Positions 27,786-43,671 of a DNA stretch of 64,000 nucleotides are shown here, one piece after another. Every line of letters begins with the position of its first letter. The first letter of the stretch is position 1. The position numbers and the translations under genes are program-made. The notes under the pieces are model-generated. The model was not told where the DNA came from, did no database searches, and was given only the letters and a program-made list of their open reading frames with translations. This DNA comes from Bryobacteraceae bacterium (GTDB taxonomy: Bacteria; Acidobacteriota; Terriglobia; Bryobacterales; Bryobacteraceae): positions 51,992 through 115,991 of the forward strand of contig JAICJH010000014.1 of assembly GCA_025928545.1 (NCBI GenBank), given 5' to 3'.

Positions 27786-28472
27786 GTGGAGGGCGATTTG
27801 ACGGAAATCGATCTGACGCTCGATGATTCCGAGGTTGTCGTGCGGGTGCTGGGCGGCGAAAGCAGTCTTTTTGAAATCCTGATATGCCGTTATAACGGGA
27901 GATTGTTGCGGATCATTCGTTCCGTGATCGCAGACCATTCCGAAGCGGAGGACGCCTTACAGAACACGTGGGTTCTTGCGTTTGAGCATTTAGCCCAATT
28001 CGAAGGCAGATCCAGCTTTGTGACCTGGGCGACAAAAATCGCTCTCCACAGCGCGGTTCGGCGCGAACGGCAGGGCAGAAAGTTAGTTGCGCTGGAGCAT
28101 GCCGACGGGCGAATGAAATCAAGTGTCGAGCACCGGAACGTGAGAGCGCGGGATCCCGAGTCGCAAGCTCTCGATGGAGAAGTGAAGGCTATGCTTCAGT
28201 CTTCGGTGGACCGCCTGCCCGATAGCTGCCGTCCGGTTTTTATCCTGCGCGAAGTGGAACAGATGAATACAGCGGAAACCGCCGAATGCCTGAATCTATC
28301 GGAAGAGGCTGTCAAGACGCGTCTGCGCCGCGCGCGCCTTCTGCTGAGGAAAGATCTGGAGGATCGGCTCGGCGCGGCGATCGCAGACTGCTATCCGTTC
28401 ATCGGTCAACGAGGCGACTTCACGGTTGCGGCGGTTTCGGATGACCTGGCACTGAGCCCGCTCAACGTGTAA
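27786..28472 (+). CDS. ECF-type RNA polymerase sigma factor
   Basis: This 228-residue ECF sigma has region 2 (HSEAEDALQNTWVLAFEHLA, then FVTWATKIALHSAVRRERQ) and region 4 (LPDSCRPVFILREVEQMNTA, then EEAVKTRLRRARLLLRKDL, the helix-turn-helix). The start is GTG 27786. No anti-sigma factor or zinc-binding ZAS protein is encoded next to it; the next gene is a di-heme cytochrome on the same strand after 220 bp. The roughly 45-residue C-terminal extension after region 4 (DRLGAAIADCYPFIGQRGDF and following) could be a built-in control segment. Confidence 0.92.
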   Translation: MEGDLTEIDLTLDDSEVVVRVLGGESSLFEILICRYNGRLLRIIRSVIADHSEAEDALQNTWVLAFEHLAQFEGRSSFVTWATKIALHSAVRRERQGRKLVALEHADGRMKSSVEHRNVRARDPESQALDGEVKAMLQSSVDRLPDSCRPVFILREVEQMNTAETAECLNLSEEAVKTRLRRARLLLRKDLEDRLGAAIADCYPFIGQRGDFTVAAVSDDLALSPLNV

Positions 28473-28542
28473 TTCGCACGGACGGTCACACCGGTGGCCG
28501 GGACGAACACTAATGTTCCATCGCAAGGGCAAGTTATACCCA

Positions 28543-28555
28543 CTCACTTAGTGAG
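28543..28555. promoter_or_regulatory. Perfect inverted repeat CTCAC-TTA-GTGAG
   Basis: A 13-bp dyad lies in the 220-bp gap between the sigma factor and the cytochrome gene, about 55 bp upstream of a TTGACA box. It could be an operator or a small hairpin. It has no T-run and is not a convincing terminator. Confidence 0.35.
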
Positions 28556-28609
28556 CGACGCGACGCGCTGGTTTATTCCCCACACTCGTTACAACTTAGT
28601 TACATTTTT

Positions 28610-28637
28610 TTGACAGAGTTACCGCAACCCTTACTCG
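28610..28637 (+). promoter_or_regulatory. Possible promoter of the di-heme cytochrome gene
   Basis: A consensus -35 TTGACA (28610-28615) follows a T-run. The only -10 candidate, TACTCG (28632-28637) at 16-nt spacing, is poor. It would give a 5' leader of about 50 nt ahead of ATG 28693, which has a GGGGAA ribosome site. Confidence 0.3.
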
Positions 28638-28692
28638 TTTTGAGTCTCTATTGGTTCAGGTGAGATGGTTTAACAACAACGGGGAATATATC

Positions 28693-30189
28693 ATGCGAAC
28701 ACGTGCTCTATTTAACGTATTCAGTATCAAACGCAGTGTAGTTGCCGTGTCGGCAATCGCTTTTCTCGGGCTGATGTTGCAGCAGGTGCGAAGTCAGTCG
28801 CCAAATAGTAATCAGGATCCGGTGGCAAGCAATGCTGTCCAGCTTGTCACACAGGGTCGCCAGATCTTTCGCTTCGACACGTTTGGCGACCAGACGTTTT
28901 GGGGCGACACGCTGAAGCTGCATCAGGCCATCGAAGGAGCGGCTCTCGGCGGGCAGGGTCCCGGCGTCAGTCCGAAGGCTGCCCTTACGGTTGGGTTGAA
29001 AGTCGATGTAGACGCCTTGCCCCGCAATCTGTTCGAGGACCTGCAGCACGGGAAAGTCAATCTGGACGATCCGGCGGTGACGGTTGCACTGCTGAAGGCC
29101 AACGCGGTAGTCGGCCTCACCGGCGTTTTCGATTCTTCCGGTGGCCTTCAATCCGTGGGAATTCAGTGCGCGCTGTGCCACTCGACCGTTGACGATTCCG
29201 TTCCGGCGCTGTGCGCGGGTGTGGTTCATCCGAACCCCGGCACCGGGTGTGTCGGACACCGTCTCGACGGCTGGCCCAATCGCGATCTTAATGTAGGCGC
29301 CATCATCGCTCTCGCACCCGATTTAAGCGTGGTTGCGAAACTGCTCTCCACCACGGAGACCGCGGTGAGAAGCGTGCTTAACACGTGGGGTCCGGGAAAA
29401 TTCGACGCTGAATTGTTCCTCGATGGTAAGGCTGCGAATCCGCAGCAAATGACCGACGGTGTCGTTACAGCGACGAACGTGCCAGGCGCAACATTGATTC
29501 CGCCTGCGTTCGGATTGGGCGGCGTGAATCTTCATACCTGGACCGGGTGGGGCTCCGTACCTCACTGGAACGCCTTTGTGGCAACGCTGGAAATGCACGG
29601 ACAGGGCCGGTTCTGGGATCCGCGGCTCAATGACGCCACCCAATTTCCAGTTGCCGCGGCCCACGGCTTCGGAGACTTGCGACAGCCCAACGGGCAATAC
29701 ATCAGTCCCGACGACGATATGGTGACATCGAAGCTCCAGGCTCTCCAGTTTTATCAGCTGGCAATTCCATCGCCGCAACCGCCTCCCGGGAGTTTCGATA
29801 AGGATGCGGCGGAGCGCGGTGACGAATTGTTCAGCGGCAAGGCGAAATGCAACAACTGCCACGTTGAGCCACTATGGAGCGATCCGGGCTGGAATCTGCA
29901 TACTCCCGCCGAAATTTGTATCGATAGTTTTCAGGCGAATCGAGCGCCGGATCATCGATATCGCACGTCTCCGATCGGCGATCTGTTTACGCACACGAAA
30001 GGCGGCTTCTATCACGATGGCCGCTTCCCCGCTCTGTCAAACGTGGTGGATCACTACAACTCGTGCATGTCGCTCGGACTCAGTGGTGCGGAAAAGAGCG
30101 ATTTGATTCAATACCTGCAAAGCCTGACGTTCGGCAGTCAGGATTCGGGAAAGAAGGCTACTGAAAAGTCACCGTCCAGACGCAGATAA
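28693..30189 (+). CDS. Exported di-heme c-type cytochrome
   Basis: The track starts at 28651; I use ATG 28693 (498 aa), with GGGGAA 6 nt upstream and a good signal segment (SVVAVSAIAFLGLML). Two heme c motifs are visible: CALCH in the first half and CNNCH in the last third, with FDTFGDQTFWGDTLKLH near the start. The C-terminal block GGFYHDGRFPALSNVVDHYN is typical of di-heme cytochrome c peroxidase/MauG-related proteins, where the His/Tyr region lies near the second heme. The protein is periplasmic; peroxidase or electron-transfer activity is inferred. The C-terminus is basic (KKATEKSPSRRR). Confidence 0.88.
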   Translation: MRTRALFNVFSIKRSVVAVSAIAFLGLMLQQVRSQSPNSNQDPVASNAVQLVTQGRQIFRFDTFGDQTFWGDTLKLHQAIEGAALGGQGPGVSPKAALTVGLKVDVDALPRNLFEDLQHGKVNLDDPAVTVALLKANAVVGLTGVFDSSGGLQSVGIQCALCHSTVDDSVPALCAGVVHPNPGTGCVGHRLDGWPNRDLNVGAIIALAPDLSVVAKLLSTTETAVRSVLNTWGPGKFDAELFLDGKAANPQQMTDGVVTATNVPGATLIPPAFGLGGVNLHTWTGWGSVPHWNAFVATLEMHGQGRFWDPRLNDATQFPVAAAHGFGDLRQPNGQYISPDDDMVTSKLQALQFYQLAIPSPQPPPGSFDKDAAERGDELFSGKAKCNNCHVEPLWSDPGWNLHTPAEICIDSFQANRAPDHRYRTSPIGDLFTHTKGGFYHDGRFPALSNVVDHYNSCMSLGLSGAEKSDLIQYLQSLTFGSQDSGKKATEKSPSRRR

Positions 30190-30594: not shown

Positions 30595-30612
30595 CTACGA
30601 GAAGCGTCGTAG
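30595..30612. promoter_or_regulatory. Upstream BlaI-type operator (TACGA-N6-TCGTA)
   Basis: CTACGA-gaagcg-TCGTAG is an inverted repeat whose core (30596-30611) has the same half-sites and 6-bp spacing as the promoter-embedded operator at 30638-30653. The centres are 42 bp apart, four helical turns. It lies between the divergent 75-aa gene and blaI, so one repressor could affect both. Confidence 0.7.
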
Positions 30613-30631: not shown

Positions 30632-30660
30632 TTGACATACGAGCGCGCTCGTACTAGCAT
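30632..30660 (+). promoter_or_regulatory. blaI promoter with operator filling the -35/-10 spacer
   Basis: TTGACA (30632-30637) and TAGCAT (30655-30660) are separated by 17 nt, of which 16 are the perfect palindrome TACGAGCGCGCTCGTA (30638-30653). A dimer bound here would exclude RNA polymerase. The -10 ends 8 nt before ATG 30669, so the transcript should be nearly leaderless; there is no Shine-Dalgarno sequence at usable spacing. Confidence 0.8.
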
Positions 30661-30668
30661 GGCAGGCG

Positions 30669-31046
30669 ATGCCTCCTCTGCCAAGCGATGCCGAACTGGA
30701 AATCCTCGCGGTCCTCTGGAAACTGGGACCTTCCACTGTGCGCGACGTTCATGAAGCCATCGGCAAGGGCGGCGCTTATACAACTGCGCTCAAGCAAATG
30801 CAGGTCATGGCGGGAAAAGGCCTTCTTCTGCGCGATGACAGCGACCGGTCTCATGTTTACAAGCCCGCCGTATCGCGCGTCAGAACCCAGCGCCAGATTG
30901 CCGCCGATATTGTGCGCAGGGCATTTCAGGGCTCCGCCAAGAGTCTTGTTCTGGGCGCGCTCGGAACTAAAGAAGCGTCCAGCGAAGATCTGGCCGAAAT
31001 TAAGGCTGTTATTGCCGAACTCGAGGAAAGGAAGAAGCCGAAATGA
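30669..31046 (+). CDS. BlaI/MecI/CopY-family transcriptional repressor
   Basis: This 125-residue protein has the family winged helix: SDAELEILAVLWKLGPSTVRDV, then GAYTTALKQMQVMAGKGLL and DDSDRSHVYKPAVSR, with a C-terminal dimerisation helix (SSEDLAEIKAVIAELEERKK). BlaI-type repressors are dimers inactivated by proteolysis linked to a BlaR1-type M56 membrane peptidase, which is exactly the next gene (4-bp ATGA overlap). Autoregulation is strongly suggested by the two matching operators upstream. The start at ATG 30669 is the only in-frame start consistent with the winged-helix N-terminus. Confidence 0.93.
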   Translation: MPPLPSDAELEILAVLWKLGPSTVRDVHEAIGKGGAYTTALKQMQVMAGKGLLLRDDSDRSHVYKPAVSRVRTQRQIAADIVRRAFQGSAKSLVLGALGTKEASSEDLAEIKAVIAELEERKKPK

Positions 31047-33814
31047 GTACGGATCTGATGTCTCAACCCTGGGTCGCACGCGCAGGCTGGACGCTGGTTC
31101 ACTTTCTCTGGCAAGGTACGGTGCTGGCATTATTCTATGCCGCCATCCGATGGCTCACAACGCAACGACTGTCCGCCCAGGTCCGCTATCTGCTTGGTTG
31201 CGCCACGCTGCTGCTGATGACGGTATCACCTTTTCTTACTTTCGTCCTCCTGGGGACCTCAGCGACCGGTCCGGCAAACGCGACTCTGTGGAGAATAACT
31301 CCGGCCAGCCTTTGGCAACAGGCCTTGCCATGGCTGGTTGTGGCGTGGATAGCCGGAGTGGGTGTCTCCTCGGCGCGGCTGTTGGCCGGATTCCGCGCGA
31401 CGGTTCGTCTGAGAACAAATAATGTCGTCGCCGCGCCGGCGGAGTGGCGTCTCGCTCTTTCGGAAATTGCGACGCGCGTGAGAGTGGCGAAGCCAGTCCG
31501 GCTGCTCGTCTCGTCGCTGGTTGCCGTTCCCACGGTCGTCGGCTGGTTGCGGCCGGTCATCCTGCTTCCGGCGACCGCGCTCACTGGTCTCGAACCTCAA
31601 CAACTCGAAGCGCTGCTCGCCCACGAACTCGGTCACATCCGCCGCCACGACTATCTCATCAATATTCTGCAGAATGTGGCCGAGGCCATATTGTTCTATC
31701 ACCCGGCGGTGTGGTGGGTATCGGAACAAATTCGCAGCGATCGCGAAATGTGCTGTGACGATATCGCGGTGGAAGCGAGCGGCGATGCGCTTCTGTACGC
31801 CTCGGCTCTGGCCGATCTGGAATCCCGCCGCTTCGCACCTGCCGGACTCTCGATGGCCGCGAACGGCGGTTCTTTGCTGAATCGCATCCGCCGCCTCGCA
31901 GGAAAACCCGAACGCGCCGCCGATAATCTGCCGGGCTCGGGCGCGGCCTGGGCGGTGGGCGTGCTGTGGCTGGTGGGCGTGGGCGCTATGACTCTACATG
32001 GAGCGCCGGCAAAGCCACCGGTGGTCTACCGGCAGATCGCAAACACGCCCCAGCCAATCGCCGCACCCGCGCCTCCTTCAAGGCAGGCACCGGTTCTGTT
32101 CGCGCAAAAGGTCACTAAAACCTTGCTGTTCGATCCCTTCTTCGATCAACCGCAAAACCAGCAGGCCAAGCCGGCATCTTCAGATGCAACCACGCCGGTT
32201 TCTTCGGAACAGGATCAGATCCATGTCTCGGGAACAGTGGTGGGCGGCGCGCACGAGCCTCTAAAAAAGGCGACGGTGCGCCTCGAAGTAATAGTTTCCT
32301 CCGGTCAGGCTGCGGCATATTCGGAAACAACCGACGAGACCGGTAAGTTCGTAATCGACAACATCGCACCGGGCAACTATCGGATGTCAGCCGCCAAAAC
32401 CGGTTTCGTCACCGCTCAGTACGGCGCCCGAACTATTGCCGCGCCGGGAGCCACTGTCGCGCTCAAAGCCGGTGCCAACCTGAAAGATCTCGAAATCGCT
32501 TTGAGCCCCCAAGGCACCATCGCCGGACGAATTACGGATCAGGATGGCGACCCCGTCGTCCGCGCGCCCATCACCATACTCCGCTCCGGATATGAGCACG
32601 GACGAAAACAACTGGTGAGTTCCAATCTTCGCGCGCAAACCGACGACACGGGCCGCTTCCGAATTGGCAATGTGCCGCCCGGGCGCTACTTCCTGAAGGC
32701 CGAACAACAAAATCAGCCGCCGGATCTGGAGCCAGGCACCGCCGATCTGCCCACGTTTTATCCCGCCGCGCGCGATGCCGCAAGCGCCGCGCCGATAGTA
32801 GTTGCCGCCGGGTCGCGCATCGAAGCCATCAATGTGAAACTGCGGCGCTCCCGCGCGTATTCGGTGAAAGGCACGGTCCTGCTGGATGGCGCACCGGTGA
32901 ATTCGATTCTCGACAAGAGACTGGCCTCCGAGACCTCGCAGCAGGCGGGCAGTATCGTTTCCGTACAGAACGGAGCGCTCGCGCTCAGTAACATGGAGCC
33001 CGGAACCTACAGCCTGAGCGTCGTTCCGAGCGGCACGGTGGCGCCTGGCTTGCCGTTCTCACTGGGCCTGACCGGGCAGGTAGAATTCACCGTCCGGGAT
33101 TCGAACATCGAAGGCCTCGTTCTGAACCTGGAACACGGAGTGGAACTTTCGGGCGCGTTCCAGGTGGAGGGAGCCGACTGGCAGACTCTCGTCGCTCCGG
33201 CCTCGCCAGGCGCACAACCCCGTCTCCCCTTCATCAATCTTGTGGCGGACCCGGCACTGCGTTTTACTCCAATCAACAGAGTCAACCCCGATGGAACCTT
33301 CCAGCTCAAGCCCATGGCTGTCGGCAGGTATCTTGTGGATATCACGTCCCTGCCCACCGGAACCTACGTGAAATCCGTGCGCTACGGAACGCTCGATGTT
33401 TCCAACTCACCCATTAACGTGGTGAACGGCGGCGGCGAATTACAAATCCTGCTTTCGACGAAGGCGGCCAGCATCACCGGCGCGCTCAAGAGCGTCACCG
33501 GCGACCCGCTCTACGGTATGCAAATTACAGCATGGCCGCAGAACCCGAATCCAGGGACCGTGACGCGCGGGATCGTGAGCGTCTATACCGATCAAAACGG
33601 AGCCTTCACAATTCGCGGCCTGGCGCCTGGAACTTATCACGTCGCGGCGTGGGAGGAAATCGATTCGGGACTCGCCCAGGATGCAGCGTTCCTGCAACAT
33701 TTTGAGGGCCAGGCGGCAACCGTTACGCTCGAAGAGAGCGGGCAGAAAACAGCCGACCTCAAGCCAATCTCCGCGGACGCCGTAGCCAAAGAAGCCGCAC
33801 AACTGCCGCAGTAG
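31043..33814 (+). CDS. M56 (BlaR1-like) membrane metallopeptidase with carboxypeptidase-regulatory-like repeats
   Basis: This 923-residue protein has four hydrophobic segments around an M56 peptidase domain with zinc motif HELGH (194-198) and REMCCDD (about 234-240). After a last membrane segment (WAVGVLWLVGVGAMTLHG, about 310-325) comes a Pro-rich linker. At least three beta-sandwich repeats of carboxypeptidase-regulatory type follow (for example VSGTVVGGAHEPLKKATVRL, then GRITDQDGDPVVRAPITI, and ITGALKSVTGDPLYGMQITA). The classic BlaR1 penicillin-sensor domain is missing, so the signal is not a beta-lactam sensed in the usual way. It probably cleaves or triggers loss of the adjacent BlaI. 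Confidence 0.9.
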   Translation: MSTDLMSQPWVARAGWTLVHFLWQGTVLALFYAAIRWLTTQRLSAQVRYLLGCATLLLMTVSPFLTFVLLGTSATGPANATLWRITPASLWQQALPWLVVAWIAGVGVSSARLLAGFRATVRLRTNNVVAAPAEWRLALSEIATRVRVAKPVRLLVSSLVAVPTVVGWLRPVILLPATALTGLEPQQLEALLAHELGHIRRHDYLINILQNVAEAILFYHPAVWWVSEQIRSDREMCCDDIAVEASGDALLYASALADLESRRFAPAGLSMAANGGSLLNRIRRLAGKPERAADNLPGSGAAWAVGVLWLVGVGAMTLHGAPAKPPVVYRQIANTPQPIAAPAPPSRQAPVLFAQKVTKTLLFDPFFDQPQNQQAKPASSDATTPVSSEQDQIHVSGTVVGGAHEPLKKATVRLEVIVSSGQAAAYSETTDETGKFVIDNIAPGNYRMSAAKTGFVTAQYGARTIAAPGATVALKAGANLKDLEIALSPQGTIAGRITDQDGDPVVRAPITILRSGYEHGRKQLVSSNLRAQTDDTGRFRIGNVPPGRYFLKAEQQNQPPDLEPGTADLPTFYPAARDAASAAPIVVAAGSRIEAINVKLRRSRAYSVKGTVLLDGAPVNSILDKRLASETSQQAGSIVSVQNGALALSNMEPGTYSLSVVPSGTVAPGLPFSLGLTGQVEFTVRDSNIEGLVLNLEHGVELSGAFQVEGADWQTLVAPASPGAQPRLPFINLVADPALRFTPINRVNPDGTFQLKPMAVGRYLVDITSLPTGTYVKSVRYGTLDVSNSPINVVNGGGELQILLSTKAASITGALKSVTGDPLYGMQITAWPQNPNPGTVTRGIVSVYTDQNGAFTIRGLAPGTYHVAAWEEIDSGLAQDAAFLQHFEGQAATVTLEESGQKTADLKPISADAVAKEAAQLPQ

Positions 33815-33827
33815 AGGAGCCCGAGCC

Positions 33828-35564
33828 ATGCGCGAAACGAAATTGCTTGTGCGGTTGCTGCTGTTGTTTATTTGTGGAGCGGCGCAGGCCCAAACACCCC
33901 AGCCACCCGTTAAAGCCCGCGTTTCAGGACGCGTCACGAACCCAACCGGCGAAACACTGCGGCGGGCTGTGGTGCGCCTGCTGGGCAAAGAATCCTACAA
34001 ACAAACCGTAGATGCTAATGGCGGCTTCGCTCTGGAGGGCATCGCGCCCGGCTCGTATGTCCTGATCGTCCAGAGAACCGGCTACTCCGCGCAAAAGTAC
34101 GGAGCTTCCACTCCCCTGATCCGCGATTGCTTCAATGCCGAGCAAACCAGCATCAAGCCGGAAGACGTAGCCGCACTCCGGCAATGTGCGGCCCGGGCAC
34201 CCGGCACCGTGTTGTCGCTCAAAGCCGGCGCTGAACTGACAAACATCGCCATCAAATTGACGCCGCTCGGATACATCAGCGGACGGGTCACGAATCAGGA
34301 TGGCGAACCCGTACCTGCGTGGCAGGTGCAACCGATGCAGGCTGTTTTTGAGAACGGTAAACGGAGGCTGCAGACCAGAGGCGGAGGACGCACCGACGCG
34401 GATGGCTACTATTCCATCGGCAATCTGCTGCCCGGGAAATACATTCTGCGGGCCTACAATCTGACCGGGAGTATGTTTGCCGGCCTGAATACCGATCGCC
34501 AGGGGAAGGCCGAGACCGAAGCTGAGCGCACGACGTACTATCCAGGCTCCGGCGATCCGGCGGAGGCGTCATCCGTAGATGTAGGCTCCGGTGCGGAACT
34601 GACGGGCATGGACATCCGCCTGCTTCGCAAACGCGTTTACACAATCAGCGGAAAAGTCGACGTCCCGCCGGGTACCGCCGTGGGAGACCAGATTCTCAAC
34701 CTGAACGTCAGCGGCCAACGCAGAGCCGTTATGAATTTCATGACGGCTATTGTCCGCCCGGATGGCACGTTTGAATTCCGCGGCGTCGATCCCGGAACAT
34801 ACGTCATCTCGGGCAGTGGCGTTCTGACCCGTCCAGGAATTCCACCACCCGACCCGTTTACCGGACAGATGGAAGCGACGGTGACCACCGCGGACGTGGC
34901 CGGCCTGAAGATGACTGTTGGTACCGGTGCAACCGCCGTCGCAGTGGCCGGGATGGTGGTGAGCGAAGGCACCAAACCTCCCACTTCTCCGACGGTCCTG
35001 CTCAACGATCCGGACAGCACATATGGAAACCCGGCGGCGGCGCCGGATTCCACCGGGGCATTCCGCTTCGAGCGGAAGTTTCCTCGCTCGAAATACACCG
35101 TGAACATGCAGAGCCTACCAGCCGGATTTTTTGTGAAATCGATTCGCTACGGCAGGCAGGATGCCCTGCACAATATGCTGGACCTGACCGGCGGCGACGC
35201 AGCCATCCTCGATATCGTGCTTGCATCGAAGGTAGCGGTTATCGAAGGGGACGTGGCAGACGCCATGCCCGGGGTAGTCATTGCAGCGTGGCCCCGCATC
35301 CCGATTGCCGCGACCGACGGCGGAGTGAAATTCACCAGCCCGGATCAGAACGGAAAATTCGAAATCACCGACCTCGCGCCAGGTTCGTACTATGTCGTTG
35401 CATTCGACGACCTCGACCCCGGCCTTCTCCGCGATGCGGACTTCCTTGCACGCTTTAATGCTAACGCCGCCAACGTTTCGTTGGAGGAGGGCGGCCGCAC
35501 CTCGGCTGACGCGAAAGTGATTCCCCGCGAACAGGTAGCAGCGGAAATCGCAAAATTGCCGTAG
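33828..35564 (+). CDS. Secreted carboxypeptidase-regulatory-like repeat protein
   Basis: This 578-residue protein has a signal peptide (LLVRLLLLFICGAAQAQ) and repeated beta-sandwich units such as VSGRVTNPTGETLRRAVVRL, ISGRVTNQDGEPVPAWQVQP and YTISGKVDVPPGTAVGD. The organisation and phrases (DLAPGSYYVVAFDDLDPGLL) closely mirror the C-terminal half of the M56 protein upstream, so the pair probably arose by duplication, with this copy as a free exported version without the peptidase. It follows 13 bp after the M56 gene with a GAGGAG site and is surely in the same operon. It may compete for or present the same ligand. Confidence 0.88.
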   Translation: MRETKLLVRLLLLFICGAAQAQTPQPPVKARVSGRVTNPTGETLRRAVVRLLGKESYKQTVDANGGFALEGIAPGSYVLIVQRTGYSAQKYGASTPLIRDCFNAEQTSIKPEDVAALRQCAARAPGTVLSLKAGAELTNIAIKLTPLGYISGRVTNQDGEPVPAWQVQPMQAVFENGKRRLQTRGGGRTDADGYYSIGNLLPGKYILRAYNLTGSMFAGLNTDRQGKAETEAERTTYYPGSGDPAEASSVDVGSGAELTGMDIRLLRKRVYTISGKVDVPPGTAVGDQILNLNVSGQRRAVMNFMTAIVRPDGTFEFRGVDPGTYVISGSGVLTRPGIPPPDPFTGQMEATVTTADVAGLKMTVGTGATAVAVAGMVVSEGTKPPTSPTVLLNDPDSTYGNPAAAPDSTGAFRFERKFPRSKYTVNMQSLPAGFFVKSIRYGRQDALHNMLDLTGGDAAILDIVLASKVAVIEGDVADAMPGVVIAAWPRIPIAATDGGVKFTSPDQNGKFEITDLAPGSYYVVAFDDLDPGLLRDADFLARFNANAANVSLEEGGRTSADAKVIPREQVAAEIAKLP

Positions 35565-35565
35565 C

Positions 35566-36486
35566 ATGAGTGAAGTGCCTTTTGCCAGAATTTGCGCCGT
35601 TGCATCACTGTGGGCGACGAGCCTCGCAATCGCCCAGATTGCCCCGCCGCCTGAGTTCGAAGTAGCCTCTCTCAAGCCAGCCGCGGGCGGGCGTTTGTCC
35701 ATGCGGGGCGGCCCCGGCACCGGCGAACCGGAGCGGATTGCTTTCGAGAATGTCGACCTTCGCAGGCTGCTCGTAAGAGCTTACGGCGTCGAAGTCGATC
35801 AGATCTCCGGACCCGGCTGGATCGATTCGGAAAAATACACGATCGCCGCAAAGCTCCCCGCGGGTACTTCTGTAGCGCAATTTCAAACCATGTTGCAAAA
35901 CCTTCTGACAGAACGTCTGACTCTCAAATTGCATCATGAGACGAAAGAGTTTTCTGCTTATGAACTGACGGTCGCAAAGAACGGTCCGAAACTGATACCG
36001 GCGGCTGCCCGGGACCCCAACGATACGGAACCGGATAGGCCACCCTACGGAACTCCCGCCACCGTGACAAAGGACAAGGAAGGCTGCCCCGTCGTCCGCC
36101 CAGGCGTGTCATCAGGCAGCGGCAGTTTCGGCCCCGGTGTCTCCTGCAGCCGCTTCAGCAAGACGACGCTCCCGGATTTTGCAAAAGCTCTGGAGAATTT
36201 TGTAGCCATGCAGGAAGGCACTTTCGGCACGCAGGACAAGACTCACGTTGTCGACAAGACCGGAATCCAGGGCGATTTCGACATTACTCTCAAATTCCAC
36301 TTTGCGCCACGATTTCCCGGGCAACAACCCTTAACCCCGGGCGTGGCCGGCGATCCTGACGTCGCCGAAGGCCCTTCACTCGCAACAGCACTCGAACAGC
36401 AGCTCGGCCTGAAGCTGCAAAGATCGAAAACCATACTCGACCGCATTGTGATCGACAGCGCGAACCGGGTCCCGGCTGAGAATTAA
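35566..36486 (+). CDS. TIGR03435 family exported protein
   Basis: This 306-residue protein has a leader (ARICAVASLWATSLAIAQ) and the TIGR03435 opening FEVASLKPA. It continues with NVDLRRLLVRAYGVEVDQIS, GPGWIDSEKYTIAAKLP and LLTERLTLKLHHETKEFSAY, and a C-terminal LGLKLQRSKTILDRIVIDS. The family is expanded in Solibacter-type Acidobacteria and in some members is fused to M56 peptidases. Here it is the fourth gene of the BlaI/M56 operon, starting 1 bp after the previous stop. A role as sensor or ligand-binding component of that system is inferred. Its stop codon abuts the stop of the convergent gene with no spacer. Confidence 0.92.
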   Translation: MSEVPFARICAVASLWATSLAIAQIAPPPEFEVASLKPAAGGRLSMRGGPGTGEPERIAFENVDLRRLLVRAYGVEVDQISGPGWIDSEKYTIAAKLPAGTSVAQFQTMLQNLLTERLTLKLHHETKEFSAYELTVAKNGPKLIPAAARDPNDTEPDRPPYGTPATVTKDKEGCPVVRPGVSSGSGSFGPGVSCSRFSKTTLPDFAKALENFVAMQEGTFGTQDKTHVVDKTGIQGDFDITLKFHFAPRFPGQQPLTPGVAGDPDVAEGPSLATALEQQLGLKLQRSKTILDRIVIDSANRVPAEN

Positions 36487-38184
36487 CTACCGGCTGGAGA
36501 GAAATTTCACCAACTCCGCATCAGACATCTTCCGCGCGTCCGGGAACAGATTACTAACGATTGAACGCACGTCCGCCTTCCATTCGCGCCCACCAATGGC
36601 ATCAATCGCAAAAGCAAACCCCGCCGGATCGTTGGCGCGCATGAGTTCCTCCGCGCAACGAATTCGCAGGCTCACAGGCCGGGCCTTCTCCAGAATCGTA
36701 CGCAACCAAGGTAAAGCCGCGTCGCCAAAAGAGTTTCGCATGGCGTAAGGCTCCCCAGTGAACACCTGATCGCCTTTTTCCCCGGCCGGCTGGGCCAGCA
36801 GGAACTCAGTTATCCGGGGAAGATCTTTCGGATCCTTATGCCATGCGATCGCGACCAGGGTCTGGTCGCCGCCCATGTGATGGTCAGCGAGATTCCAGAG
36901 CACCTCATGAGCCCGCTGCGTGTGTATCTGCCCCAGCAGCGACGTGACGTCCACGGCCGACTGCGGGTCAGCGCGTCCCAGGCTCCCCGAAGCAAACGAA
37001 ATCAGCCGTTCTTCTACCCGCGCCCGAAGCTGCTGATCGATCTGAGTTCCCTCAGCCAGCGCCACCCGGGCGGCAGCAATCGCCCCCTGAAACAGCACCG
37101 GATCGTCGGAGAAAAAATATTCAATCGCACCCGGCACCATTTCCGAAGCCCGGGAACGCAGTCGCTCCATAACAACCGGCGTCGGCCCGTTCACTCGCAG
37201 CGTCTCAATCAGTCGCGGCTCCACCACGGCATCCGGCCAGTAGTAGAGAACGGCCGCCGCATAGCTGCGAACTCTCGCGCTCGCATGATAAAGATATTCC
37301 AGCACCACGCTGAGATTTTCATCGTCGGGGCGCGCCACAAGATTTGGCAGAAAGTCCGACACGACAGCGGCCGGCTCCTGCGGGTGGGCCCCGATCGCAG
37401 TCTTCGCAGCCGCAGGCAGGACCTCGATCCTGGTCCACGCCGATTGCATACGAACGTCGTTTGCTCGGCGCGCGAAAGAGCCGTAATGCGTCAGACGAAC
37501 TTCATAAATCCCCGGCTCGCTGAATCGATACTGAAGGTGGAGCGGCAAGCGGCTCCTGACGTTCGCGTCACCCAGGCGCACTATTCCTGGACACGAGGGG
37601 CCGTTGCCCCCCATCCCAAGTTGTGGATGCGCCATTGGCGCGATCAACTTCCCGTCCCGCCGCACTTCGAAACCTCCGCACGCGAAGTCCCAGGGCAATC
37701 CCATCGATGGATACGACAAACCCAGCGATCGCGGCAGCTCGACATGAATCCACACCGGCCCATCCACCCGCGCGACGCCATCAAGCGAAATCAGCGCCGT
37801 TTCCGGCAACCGCCGCACGTCCACTGGGGCGCTCCGCAATCCGTTCGAGACAACCACCAGTTTCGAAACTGCCTGTGCCGGAGCCGCGTCCGGCATCCGC
37901 GCATTGATCAGCACGTCATTCGTGTACTGAACCTCAATCGGAGCGCCGTCGATCAGCACCTGCACTCCGCAAGCCTCGGTCCCCGCGCCCTTACATCCGG
38001 CATGCGGACCATACCCGTGCCCCCAAATGGAAAACACTATTCCAGGCGGCAAAATGCCCGGTAAAGGGGTATCCGCCCGCACGATCCCATCCGGATTAAT
38101 CGTAGGAACCGCCTGCCCAAAAGCTAAGATTGGCAGAGCGAGTAACAATAAGCCGCGGATCTGCATCTTGTTATCAGACGCCAT
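36487..38184 (-). CDS. Exported protein with TIGR03437-like N-terminus and HEAT-like repeats
   Basis: This 565-residue protein has a leader (GLLLLALPILAFGQA). The N-terminal part (PGILPPGIVFSIWGHGYGP, then VLIDGAPIEVQYTNDVLINA) resembles the Ig-like TIGR03437/IPT module. The second half has alpha-helical HEAT-like stretches (VVLEYLYHASARVRSYAAAV, IAAARVALAEGTQIDQQLRA and others). ATG 38166 (MQIRGLL) is an alternative start. It is divergent from the 179-aa exported protein with only 11 bp between the starts, so the promoters must lie inside the opposing genes. Function unknown; a secreted protein-binding or scaffold role is likely. Confidence 0.75.
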   Translation of the reverse strand: MASDNKMQIRGLLLLALPILAFGQAVPTINPDGIVRADTPLPGILPPGIVFSIWGHGYGPHAGCKGAGTEACGVQVLIDGAPIEVQYTNDVLINARMPDAAPAQAVSKLVVVSNGLRSAPVDVRRLPETALISLDGVARVDGPVWIHVELPRSLGLSYPSMGLPWDFACGGFEVRRDGKLIAPMAHPQLGMGGNGPSCPGIVRLGDANVRSRLPLHLQYRFSEPGIYEVRLTHYGSFARRANDVRMQSAWTRIEVLPAAAKTAIGAHPQEPAAVVSDFLPNLVARPDDENLSVVLEYLYHASARVRSYAAAVLYYWPDAVVEPRLIETLRVNGPTPVVMERLRSRASEMVPGAIEYFFSDDPVLFQGAIAAARVALAEGTQIDQQLRARVEERLISFASGSLGRADPQSAVDVTSLLGQIHTQRAHEVLWNLADHHMGGDQTLVAIAWHKDPKDLPRITEFLLAQPAGEKGDQVFTGEPYAMRNSFGDAALPWLRTILEKARPVSLRIRCAEELMRANDPAGFAFAIDAIGGREWKADVRSIVSNLFPDARKMSDAELVKFLSSR

Positions 38185-42827: not shown

Positions 42828-43562
42828 TTAGTTTGCCGATGGCTTCTCAGCCTTATCGATTACCAGCACTTCGACAGGACCGCGTGTTGAAGTCAACTGC
42901 AGACCCGCCTGCTCCTGCAAGGCGGTAAAAATCGTCGGGCCGCTTTCCGTTGCCCCGGAGGCGGCGGACGTATCGACCGGAGCAAACTTCAGGTCGATTA
43001 CGTAGCGGCCTTTCAGGCCCGTATTGTCTTTCACCTGCCGCTCCAGATAACTGCTGAGCTGGCCGGCGAGTTCGTCCATCGAAACGGACGTATACCGAAT
43101 CATGCGAGGGCCGGCGGACATAGAACCCGCCGGATCGGTTGTTTCTTTCAGCTTCGACCCGTCTTTACCGACCGTCAGACTGTATATCGGGAGGTTTCTG
43201 GTTTCCCTGTGCGTCACAAGGCCGAAACGCTCCGCCAGCAGACTCTGCATCATCTGACTCTTCTGCTCATTGGTCGAGTTAACCGGAAATGTCGCCTCAA
43301 TATCCCAGCCAGCAGATGTCAACCAACTCGGGCCACCAATCAGCTGAGCCGGGTTCAGTTTATAAGCGCCGAGTACAAGGCTCAGCAGCGTCAGGTTATG
43401 CGCCTCATAACGCCCGGGTGGCGATCTCACCATCTGGCCATGACTGGAAGGGTCTCCGGGTTTAACCGACGCTACGTCAAACTCGGGCCGCTTTGGTTCC
43501 TGCGAGCGAAGAAGCGTCAGCGTGACGGCCATCAGCGCGAATATGAGCCGGAGCAATTTCAT
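42828..43562 (-). CDS. TIGR03435 family exported protein (second copy)
   Basis: This 244-residue protein has a leader (LLRLIFALMAVTLTLLRS) and the signature PEFDVASVKPGDP, then LTLLSLVLGAYKLNPAQLIG, GPSWLTSAGWDIEATFP and LLAERFGLVTHRETRNLPIY. The C-terminus QEQAGLQLTSTRGPVEVLVI matches the family. It is shorter than the 35566 copy because the central Gly/Pro-rich stretch is absent. The track starts with TTG 43586; ATG 43562 is preferred. A TATAAT box ends 13 nt upstream and there is no ribosome site, so translation may be leaderless-like. No M56 or BlaI gene is adjacent to this copy. Confidence 0.9.
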   Translation of the reverse strand: MKLLRLIFALMAVTLTLLRSQEPKRPEFDVASVKPGDPSSHGQMVRSPPGRYEAHNLTLLSLVLGAYKLNPAQLIGGPSWLTSAGWDIEATFPVNSTNEQKSQMMQSLLAERFGLVTHRETRNLPIYSLTVGKDGSKLKETTDPAGSMSAGPRMIRYTSVSMDELAGQLSSYLERQVKDNTGLKGRYVIDLKFAPVDTSAASGATESGPTIFTALQEQAGLQLTSTRGPVEVLVIDKAEKPSAN

Positions 43563-43575
43563 AGGTATGAGCCCG

Positions 43576-43581
43576 ATTATA
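43576..43581 (-). promoter_or_regulatory. Consensus -10 box (TATAAT) upstream of the second TIGR03435 gene
   Basis: On the minus strand, TATAAT sits within GTATATAATC. Its end is 13 nt before ATG 43562, predicting a leader of about 6-7 nt. No clear -35 is seen at 16-18 nt spacing. Confidence 0.5.
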
Positions 43582-43671
43582 TACAAATCGCGGGGCGCTG
43601 AACGCAGGGCTCCCGGCTTAGCAAAGCCGCGGATGGAGCGGCTGATCGGTAAACGCGTTTGTACCCTTTTT

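Follow-up and report, generated by a model that had tools for sequence, protein, structure and literature searches.

A BlaI/M56 operon of a Bryobacteraceae bacterium with a repeat ectodomain in the sensor position and two secreted partner proteins

Introduction

To our knowledge, BlaI/BlaR1 signaling has been described almost exclusively as a switch for antibiotic resistance. The BlaR1/BlaI and MecR1/MecI systems of Staphylococcus aureus combine a blaI-type repressor and an M56 gluzincin in one operon with an operator at its promoter (PMC9834060), an arrangement shared by the operon described here. Among M56 proteins that have no penicillin-binding sensor is the BlaR homolog of Mycobacterium tuberculosis, which resembles the M56 protein of this operon in that respect; however, it has no equivalent sensor domain, whereas the protein described here has a large and different one (PMC9834060). 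In Clostridium thermocellum, the measured BlaI regulons are self-limited, with few sites bound, own operons included, and hypothetical proteins of those operons are the presumed response (PMC8457756). The BlaI_0696 and BlaI_1845 operons of that organism resemble what is predicted for ours in that BlaI binds at its own small operon, which includes BlaR1 homologs and such hypothetical proteins, but their operator consists of GTCTAT repeats 5 apart and no repeat or TIGR03435 proteins are reported for them (PMC8457756).

TIGR03435 is a very large protein family for which neither fold nor function is known. Our literature search found nothing on TIGR03435, DUF3738 or the M56 proteins of Acidobacteria, and the paper on duplication in Solibacter mentions neither M56 nor BlaR. 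We analyzed a stretch of 64,000 nucleotides, here called the window, from a 6.7 Mb genome of a Bryobacteraceae bacterium, in which an operon joins all of these protein families.

Results

The operon consists of four tightly packed genes on the plus strand. The first encodes a BlaI/MecI-type repressor (30669-31046) and the second a membrane zinc protease of the M56 family whose ectodomain is made of repeats (31043-33814). The third (33828-35564) and fourth (35566-36486) encode secreted proteins, a repeat protein and a TIGR03435/DUF3738 protein, respectively. The blaI and M56 genes overlap by 4 bases, 13 bases separate the M56 gene from the repeat gene, and a single base separates the latter from the TIGR03435 gene. 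A promoter-like element, TTGACA-17-TAGCAT (30632-30660), lies 5' of blaI on the plus strand; its -35 element TTGACA (30632-30637) and -10-like element TAGCAT (30655-30660) are 17 bases apart and match the consensus at 10 of 12 positions. No second promoter-like site of this kind was found when the plus strand was scanned between 30190 and the operon's end.

Upstream, positions 27786-30189 hold an ECF-type sigma factor gene (228 aa) and then a 512-aa ORF, about 480 bp from blaI, that looks cytochrome c-type-like by eye (CxxCH motifs) and has no Pfam match. Downstream, a convergent gene on the minus strand (36487-38184) ends 1 base past the last stop codon of the operon and has a weak match to TIGR03437, a Solibacter C-terminal domain, and to no other family. 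The window holds a second TIGR03435 gene on the minus strand (42828-43586), whose 252-aa product belongs to another subfamily and has no M56 near it.

The 125-aa repressor matches Pfam Penicillinase_R at 2.3e-21, with 76.7 bits against a cut-off of 22.6. The cleavage site of S. aureus BlaI, N101-F102, should align with G96-A97 of the window BlaI, so that cleavage of the window protein at this site is uncertain.

The M56 protein has 923 residues, with Peptidase_M56 on residues 87-262 (Pfam, 4e-30) and, behind the protease domain, CarboxypepD_reg in three stretches (5e-34). Its HELGH zinc-binding motif (residues 194-198; 31622-31636, plus strand) is an HExxH that is invariant in all four aligned M56-repeat proteins, and the third zinc ligand, E235 (31745-31747), lies within REMCCDD; H194, E195, H198 and E235, the last in a REMCCDD-type context, are invariant in the M56-repeat proteins of the window and of loci L096, L097 and L048. 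The spacing of HEXXH...E is that of BlaR1, where the zinc ligands are H201, H205 and E242 (PMC9834060). A profile search matched the protease part to S. aureus BlaR1 and the repeats to NOMO2. The protein was modeled with AlphaFold from a 33-row alignment (mean pLDDT 81), and the model has four transmembrane helices, as in BlaR1/MecR1, at residues 9-39, 45-71, 89-126 and 299-319 (the fourth encoded by 31937-31999, plus strand), with the protease between them. A loop at 266-274, of low confidence or disordered, aligns with the autocleavage-loop region of BlaR1, a further likeness to the S. aureus proteins, and a linker at 323-388 is also of low confidence or disordered. Beyond it, residues 393-903 (32219-33751, plus strand) form an ectodomain of about five beta-sandwich domains of the transthyretin/CnaB-like kind, as judged from the CarboxypepD_reg matches, the model and Foldseek. 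With Foldseek, the M56 part of the model found the BlaR1 cryo-EM structures (prob 1.00, E 1.4e-6) and the ectodomain found pilin and SdrD-like rods. In this arrangement the protease site would face the cytoplasm.

The first-pass annotation had read these genes as a BlaI/M56 module that lacks the penicillin-binding sensor of BlaR1 and carries several carboxypeptidase-regulatory-like repeats in its place, and the domain search agrees. Where the S. aureus proteins have a penicillin-binding sensor, this one has five beta-sandwich domains: Pfam found no transpeptidase, beta-lactamase or penicillin-binding (SXXK sensor) domain in it, only CarboxypepD_reg and related beta-sandwich models, and its score against NCBIfam blaR1_generic, 73.5 bits, is far under the cut-off of 400. 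The TonB_C domain that follows the fourth helix in six other M56 proteins of the genome is likewise absent by Pfam.

The third gene encodes a 578-aa paralog of this ectodomain (CarboxypepD_reg, 3e-30), 36% identical to M56 residues 465-922, with a signal peptide (..AAQA-Q) read by eye. The CarboxypepD_reg scores of the M56 and secreted proteins are 116.9 and 104.8 bits, respectively, against a cut-off of 32.3. The fourth gene encodes 306 residues that match TIGR03435 at 2.4e-66, with 223.9 bits against the NCBIfam cut-off of 40 (DUF3738, 147 bits against 22). These coordinates and scores bear out the earlier description of a secreted protein with matching repeats followed by a TIGR03435 protein.

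The TIGR03435 protein was modeled confidently (pLDDT 91.5, pTM 0.84, from an alignment with 65 paralogs), and its secondary structure runs beta-alpha-beta-alpha-beta, twice. The two halves aligned with each other in hhalign with a score of 29.1 (E 1.5e-4), and shorter halves scored 26.7, compared with no more than 14.2 over 30 column shuffles and with 11 for the reversed control. The protein is internally duplicated, and its fold has no solved relative in this search: Foldseek against the PDB and viral models returned nothing similar (best E 2.3 and 0.44, TM about 0.1), and no Pfam family besides DUF3738 was consistently matched by TIGR03435 members. Kinship with STN/secretin domains was considered and was unsupported by Pfam (E up to 10, 65 members), by PDB sequences and by Foldseek against the PDB and viral models.

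Two putative BlaI operators precede the operon, both exact TACGA-N6-TCGTA palindromes: a distal one, TACGAGAAGCGTCGTA (30596-30611), and a proximal one, TACGAGCGCGCTCGTA (30638-30653), a perfect 16-bp palindrome that occupies 16 of the 17 bases between the -35 and -10 elements. The same pattern is present in 60 of 112 regions upstream of BlaI-M56 pairs, a fraction that is descriptive, since the 112 loci were picked for their relatedness to the window protein and so are non-independent; it occurs in 1.3% of random 220-bp chunks from the same loci. The spacing between TACGA and TCGTA is exactly 6 in those 60 regions and 7 in five, and the other spacings from 0 to 11 occur once or never. At 51 of the 60 sites, TTGA[CT] lies directly 5' of the operator, and a second copy often runs into the -35 element. 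Lying in the promoter of its own operon and conserved in relatives, the operator is predicted to be bound by BlaI. Its ACGA-N6-TCGT type is a further difference from the S. aureus systems; for CopY, a related family, the operator has been given as TACANNTGTA (PMC7253601). The classical TACA/TGTA operator showed no enrichment and was rejected.

A second operator class, GACGA-N6-TCGTC, was found in 15 upstream regions, mostly of the TonB_C clade of M56; it stands 5' of blaI at L012, L048, L064, L065, L077, L080, L082, L083, L085, L088, L092, L093 and L168. Operator class changes together with M56 clade, GACGA-N6-TCGTC going with the TonB_C clade and TACGA-N6-TCGTA with the others. No operator was seen before the G158 copy (L097), whose true start is uncertain.

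In the window genome, a search for exact matches, which would miss weak distal sites, found seven TACGA-N6-TCGTA sites, three of them in blaI promoters (two in the window, one at L010) and four inside coding ORFs, compared with three sites for a reversed-pattern control. When 79 TIGR03435, repeat or BlaI ORFs were scanned, no gene other than blaI had a site at one mismatch or fewer. A wide BlaI regulon including repeat and TIGR03435 genes was therefore rejected for exact operators, since the four coding sites are on a par with the reversed control and the rest are blaI promoters. Because exact intergenic operators are found only before blaI genes, the operon probably regulates only itself, and most likely the window BlaI acts on its own operon alone. 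The targets apparently being confined to the operon is a difference from the S. aureus systems, as is the output: no operator-controlled beta-lactamase or PBP2a was found, the one remaining intergenic exact operator being that of another blaI promoter, and the two secreted proteins probably take the place of the beta-lactamase.

How widely is this gene order shared? In a survey of 237 genomes of the family, with scoring confined to each genome's best candidates, an M56 protein with a full repeat ectodomain occurred in four: the window genome, G001 of the same genus, and G063 and G158 of other genera. G001 (L048) has the identical order of BlaI, M56-repeat, repeat and TIGR03435, at 50, 33, 31 and 44% identity. 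G063 (L096) has the first three genes with no TIGR03435 after them, and G158 (L097) has BlaI, M56-repeat and repeat up to the contig end, so that TIGR03435 follows in two of the three operons with a readable downstream side. A candidate fourth gene in G063 (249 aa, L096) was rejected, as it is antisense to another ORF and has no domain. A bin of Vicinamibacteria (L168) adds a fifth M56 protein with full repeats, which is without both partners. The linkage of the four genes, which the first-pass annotation proposed to check in relatives, holds in part: it recurs, with all four genes at L048 and the first three at L096 and L097, but all four together are rare.

Phylogenetic analysis of the M56 domain places the window, G063 and G158 in a small group (9 rows, 98/91) next to the TIGR03435-fused M56 proteins, with which the window domain shares a well-supported clade (99/98), and places G001 and L168 within the TonB_C clade. 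A single origin of the M56-repeat fusion, with the five proteins as one clade, was rejected (p-AU 7.7e-46), and by these trees M56 acquired a full repeat ectodomain on at least three occasions. The repeat tree groups the ectodomain of the window with that of G063 (100/99) and likewise their two partner proteins (100/99), whereas the closest neighbor of the G001 ectodomain is a repeat protein that stands free (99/98); the M56-fused repeats as a single clade were rejected (p-AU 1.25e-6). The TIGR03435 proteins of the window and G001 (L048) are sisters (100/94) and reciprocal best hits among about 150 paralogs per genome (205 bits against at most 173). Given these separate M56 and repeat histories, the four-gene operons share an orthologous TIGR03435 gene and non-orthologous BlaI-M56-repeat parts. 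That this combination recurs on different backbones is the best evidence for a functional link, although the independent events are few.

A census of the window genome, by family searches and fetched regions, found 20 M56 proteins; the matches numbered 19 for Penicillinase_R and about 122 for TIGR03435. The ectodomain of the M56 proteins is TIGR03435 in ten, TonB_C in six, SLBB/Poly_export in one, GWxTD in one, nothing recognizable in one and full repeats in one, that of the window. In the ten fusions, TIGR03435 sits behind the fourth helix, which is the sensor position. Intermediate arrangements also occur: a TonB_C M56 protein that has a single repeat too (L015), a short TonB_C-bearing M56 after which a repeat protein is encoded separately (L013), and free-standing TIGR03435 genes beside M56 in arrays (L117, L122). 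With ectodomains so varied and with free-standing counterparts, the sensor position is modular, and the same kinds of domain are also secreted. The fusions in 10 of the 20 M56 proteins, with frequent adjacency otherwise, support the functional link that the earlier reading had drawn from M56-TIGR03435 fusions. The fused proteins (L009, L049, L050 and others) are like the window protein in M56 clade, BlaI pairing and a related operator type; they differ in that TIGR03435 is their ectodomain, whereas in the window it is separate and secreted and repeats form the ectodomain.

Several other loci are noted here. At L122 (3437-15236, G001:C22), BlaI and an M56 split into two ORFs are followed by a row of four single and three double TIGR03435 genes. 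At L128 (1911-7360, G000:C55), two repeat genes adjoin two TIGR03435 genes, one of them double, with no BlaI or M56, and there the repeat-TIGR03435 linkage is independent of M56. At L002 (4656-6929, G000:C141), the M56 ectodomain is Poly_export plus SLBB, which are parts of capsule export proteins, and a TIGR03435 gene lies upstream of blaI. GWxTD ectodomains occur at L010 (5724-7745) and L047 (3545-6178). Very long M56 proteins (about 1770-2570 aa) occur in Planctomycetota-type bins at L202 (7983-14609), L208 (139-5460) and L212 (7986-15701), two of them with weak repeat matches.

Discussion

The window operon is a new variant of BlaI/BlaR1-type signaling and not a new kind of system; what this analysis adds is an operator whose targets are restricted, the evidence that such operons were assembled repeatedly, and the TIGR03435 fold. 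We favor, with some reserve, the reading that it is a self-contained proteolytic switch of the BlaI/BlaR1 type with an exchanged sensor, the two secreted proteins being its output. To judge from the position and conservation of the sites, BlaI dimers on the two TACGA-N6-TCGTA operators would keep the operon off. The M56 protein would hold its zinc protease on the cytoplasmic face of the membrane and extend about five beta-sandwich domains into the periplasm as a rod, in place of the penicillin-binding domain of BlaR1, and ligand binding or mechanical strain at the rod would, by analogy with BlaR1 (PMC9834060), activate the protease to cut BlaI. Release of BlaI would turn on the whole operon, giving more receptor, a secreted copy of its ectodomain and secreted TIGR03435 protein. 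These two secreted proteins would be the response, in the position that blaZ or mecA has in the classical system. Each is a copy of a kind of domain that M56 proteins also use as ectodomain, and for this reason both probably act on the envelope ligand of the receptor or compete for it. An operon without an obvious enzyme, with an output of two non-enzymatic secreted proteins, would be unusual, and this counts against a switch with outputs, as do the rarity of the operon and the G063 copy without TIGR03435.

Might the secreted proteins instead belong to the sensor? As co-sensors, in line with the first-pass suggestion that they recognize the signal, the repeat and TIGR03435 proteins would bind the ligand and hand it to the M56 ectodomain, much as a periplasmic binding protein does with its receptor. 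That TIGR03435 itself takes the sensor position in half of the M56 proteins, and that the repeat protein is homologous to the neighboring ectodomain, indicates that both kinds of domain can serve as sensors. However, both genes are downstream of the same operator and hence targets of the switch, and the majority of the genome's TIGR03435 and repeat genes lie away from M56, so that they have roles without it. The secreted genes, being under the operator, are regulated outputs first, and a co-sensor role is possible, if unlikely.

It is improbable that BlaI-M56 is a working switch that the repeat and TIGR03435 genes joined by chance or local gene traffic. Both families are abundant, with about 122 TIGR03435 matches and 20 M56 proteins in 6.7 Mb, and the four genes are rarely together, as such joining would have it; yet the gaps are of 13 and 1 bases with no internal plus-strand promoter-like site, the order recurs around a non-orthologous M56 protein with an orthologous TIGR03435, and both kinds of secreted gene also occur fused to M56. 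It is very improbable that the M56 protein works chiefly in envelope quality control, with BlaI only setting its level and no specific ligand sensed. Its rod resembles pilin and S-layer domains and may tether to wall material rather than bind a small molecule, and M56 is distantly similar to M48/HtpX; but BlaI and M56 are strictly coupled, most relatives having an operator dedicated to the pair, and the exchange of ectodomains on a constant protease is what is expected of receptors.

The switch with an exchanged sensor and secreted outputs could be viewed as one case of something broader. In that reading, which we put forward tentatively and with more doubt than belief, M56 in Acidobacteria is a general receptor chassis, with BlaI cleavage as its single cytoplasmic output, exchangeable ectodomains (TIGR03435, beta-sandwich rods, TonB_C, SLBB export and GWxTD), an operator class of its own that insulates each switch, and control by each switch over secreted copies of its own sensor domain. 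If so, the more than 100 TIGR03435 matches per genome would form a large family with a new fold, made up of paired receptors and secreted partners, in a role comparable to that of ligand-recognition families elsewhere. The repeated fusion to M56 provides a first functional context for TIGR03435, and the operators offer a direct handle for finding regulons. Here a BlaR1-type protease has been put to use with other sensors, in a soil phylum that is abundant, and with 20 M56 proteins in one genome, M56 may be a general route of envelope sensing there.
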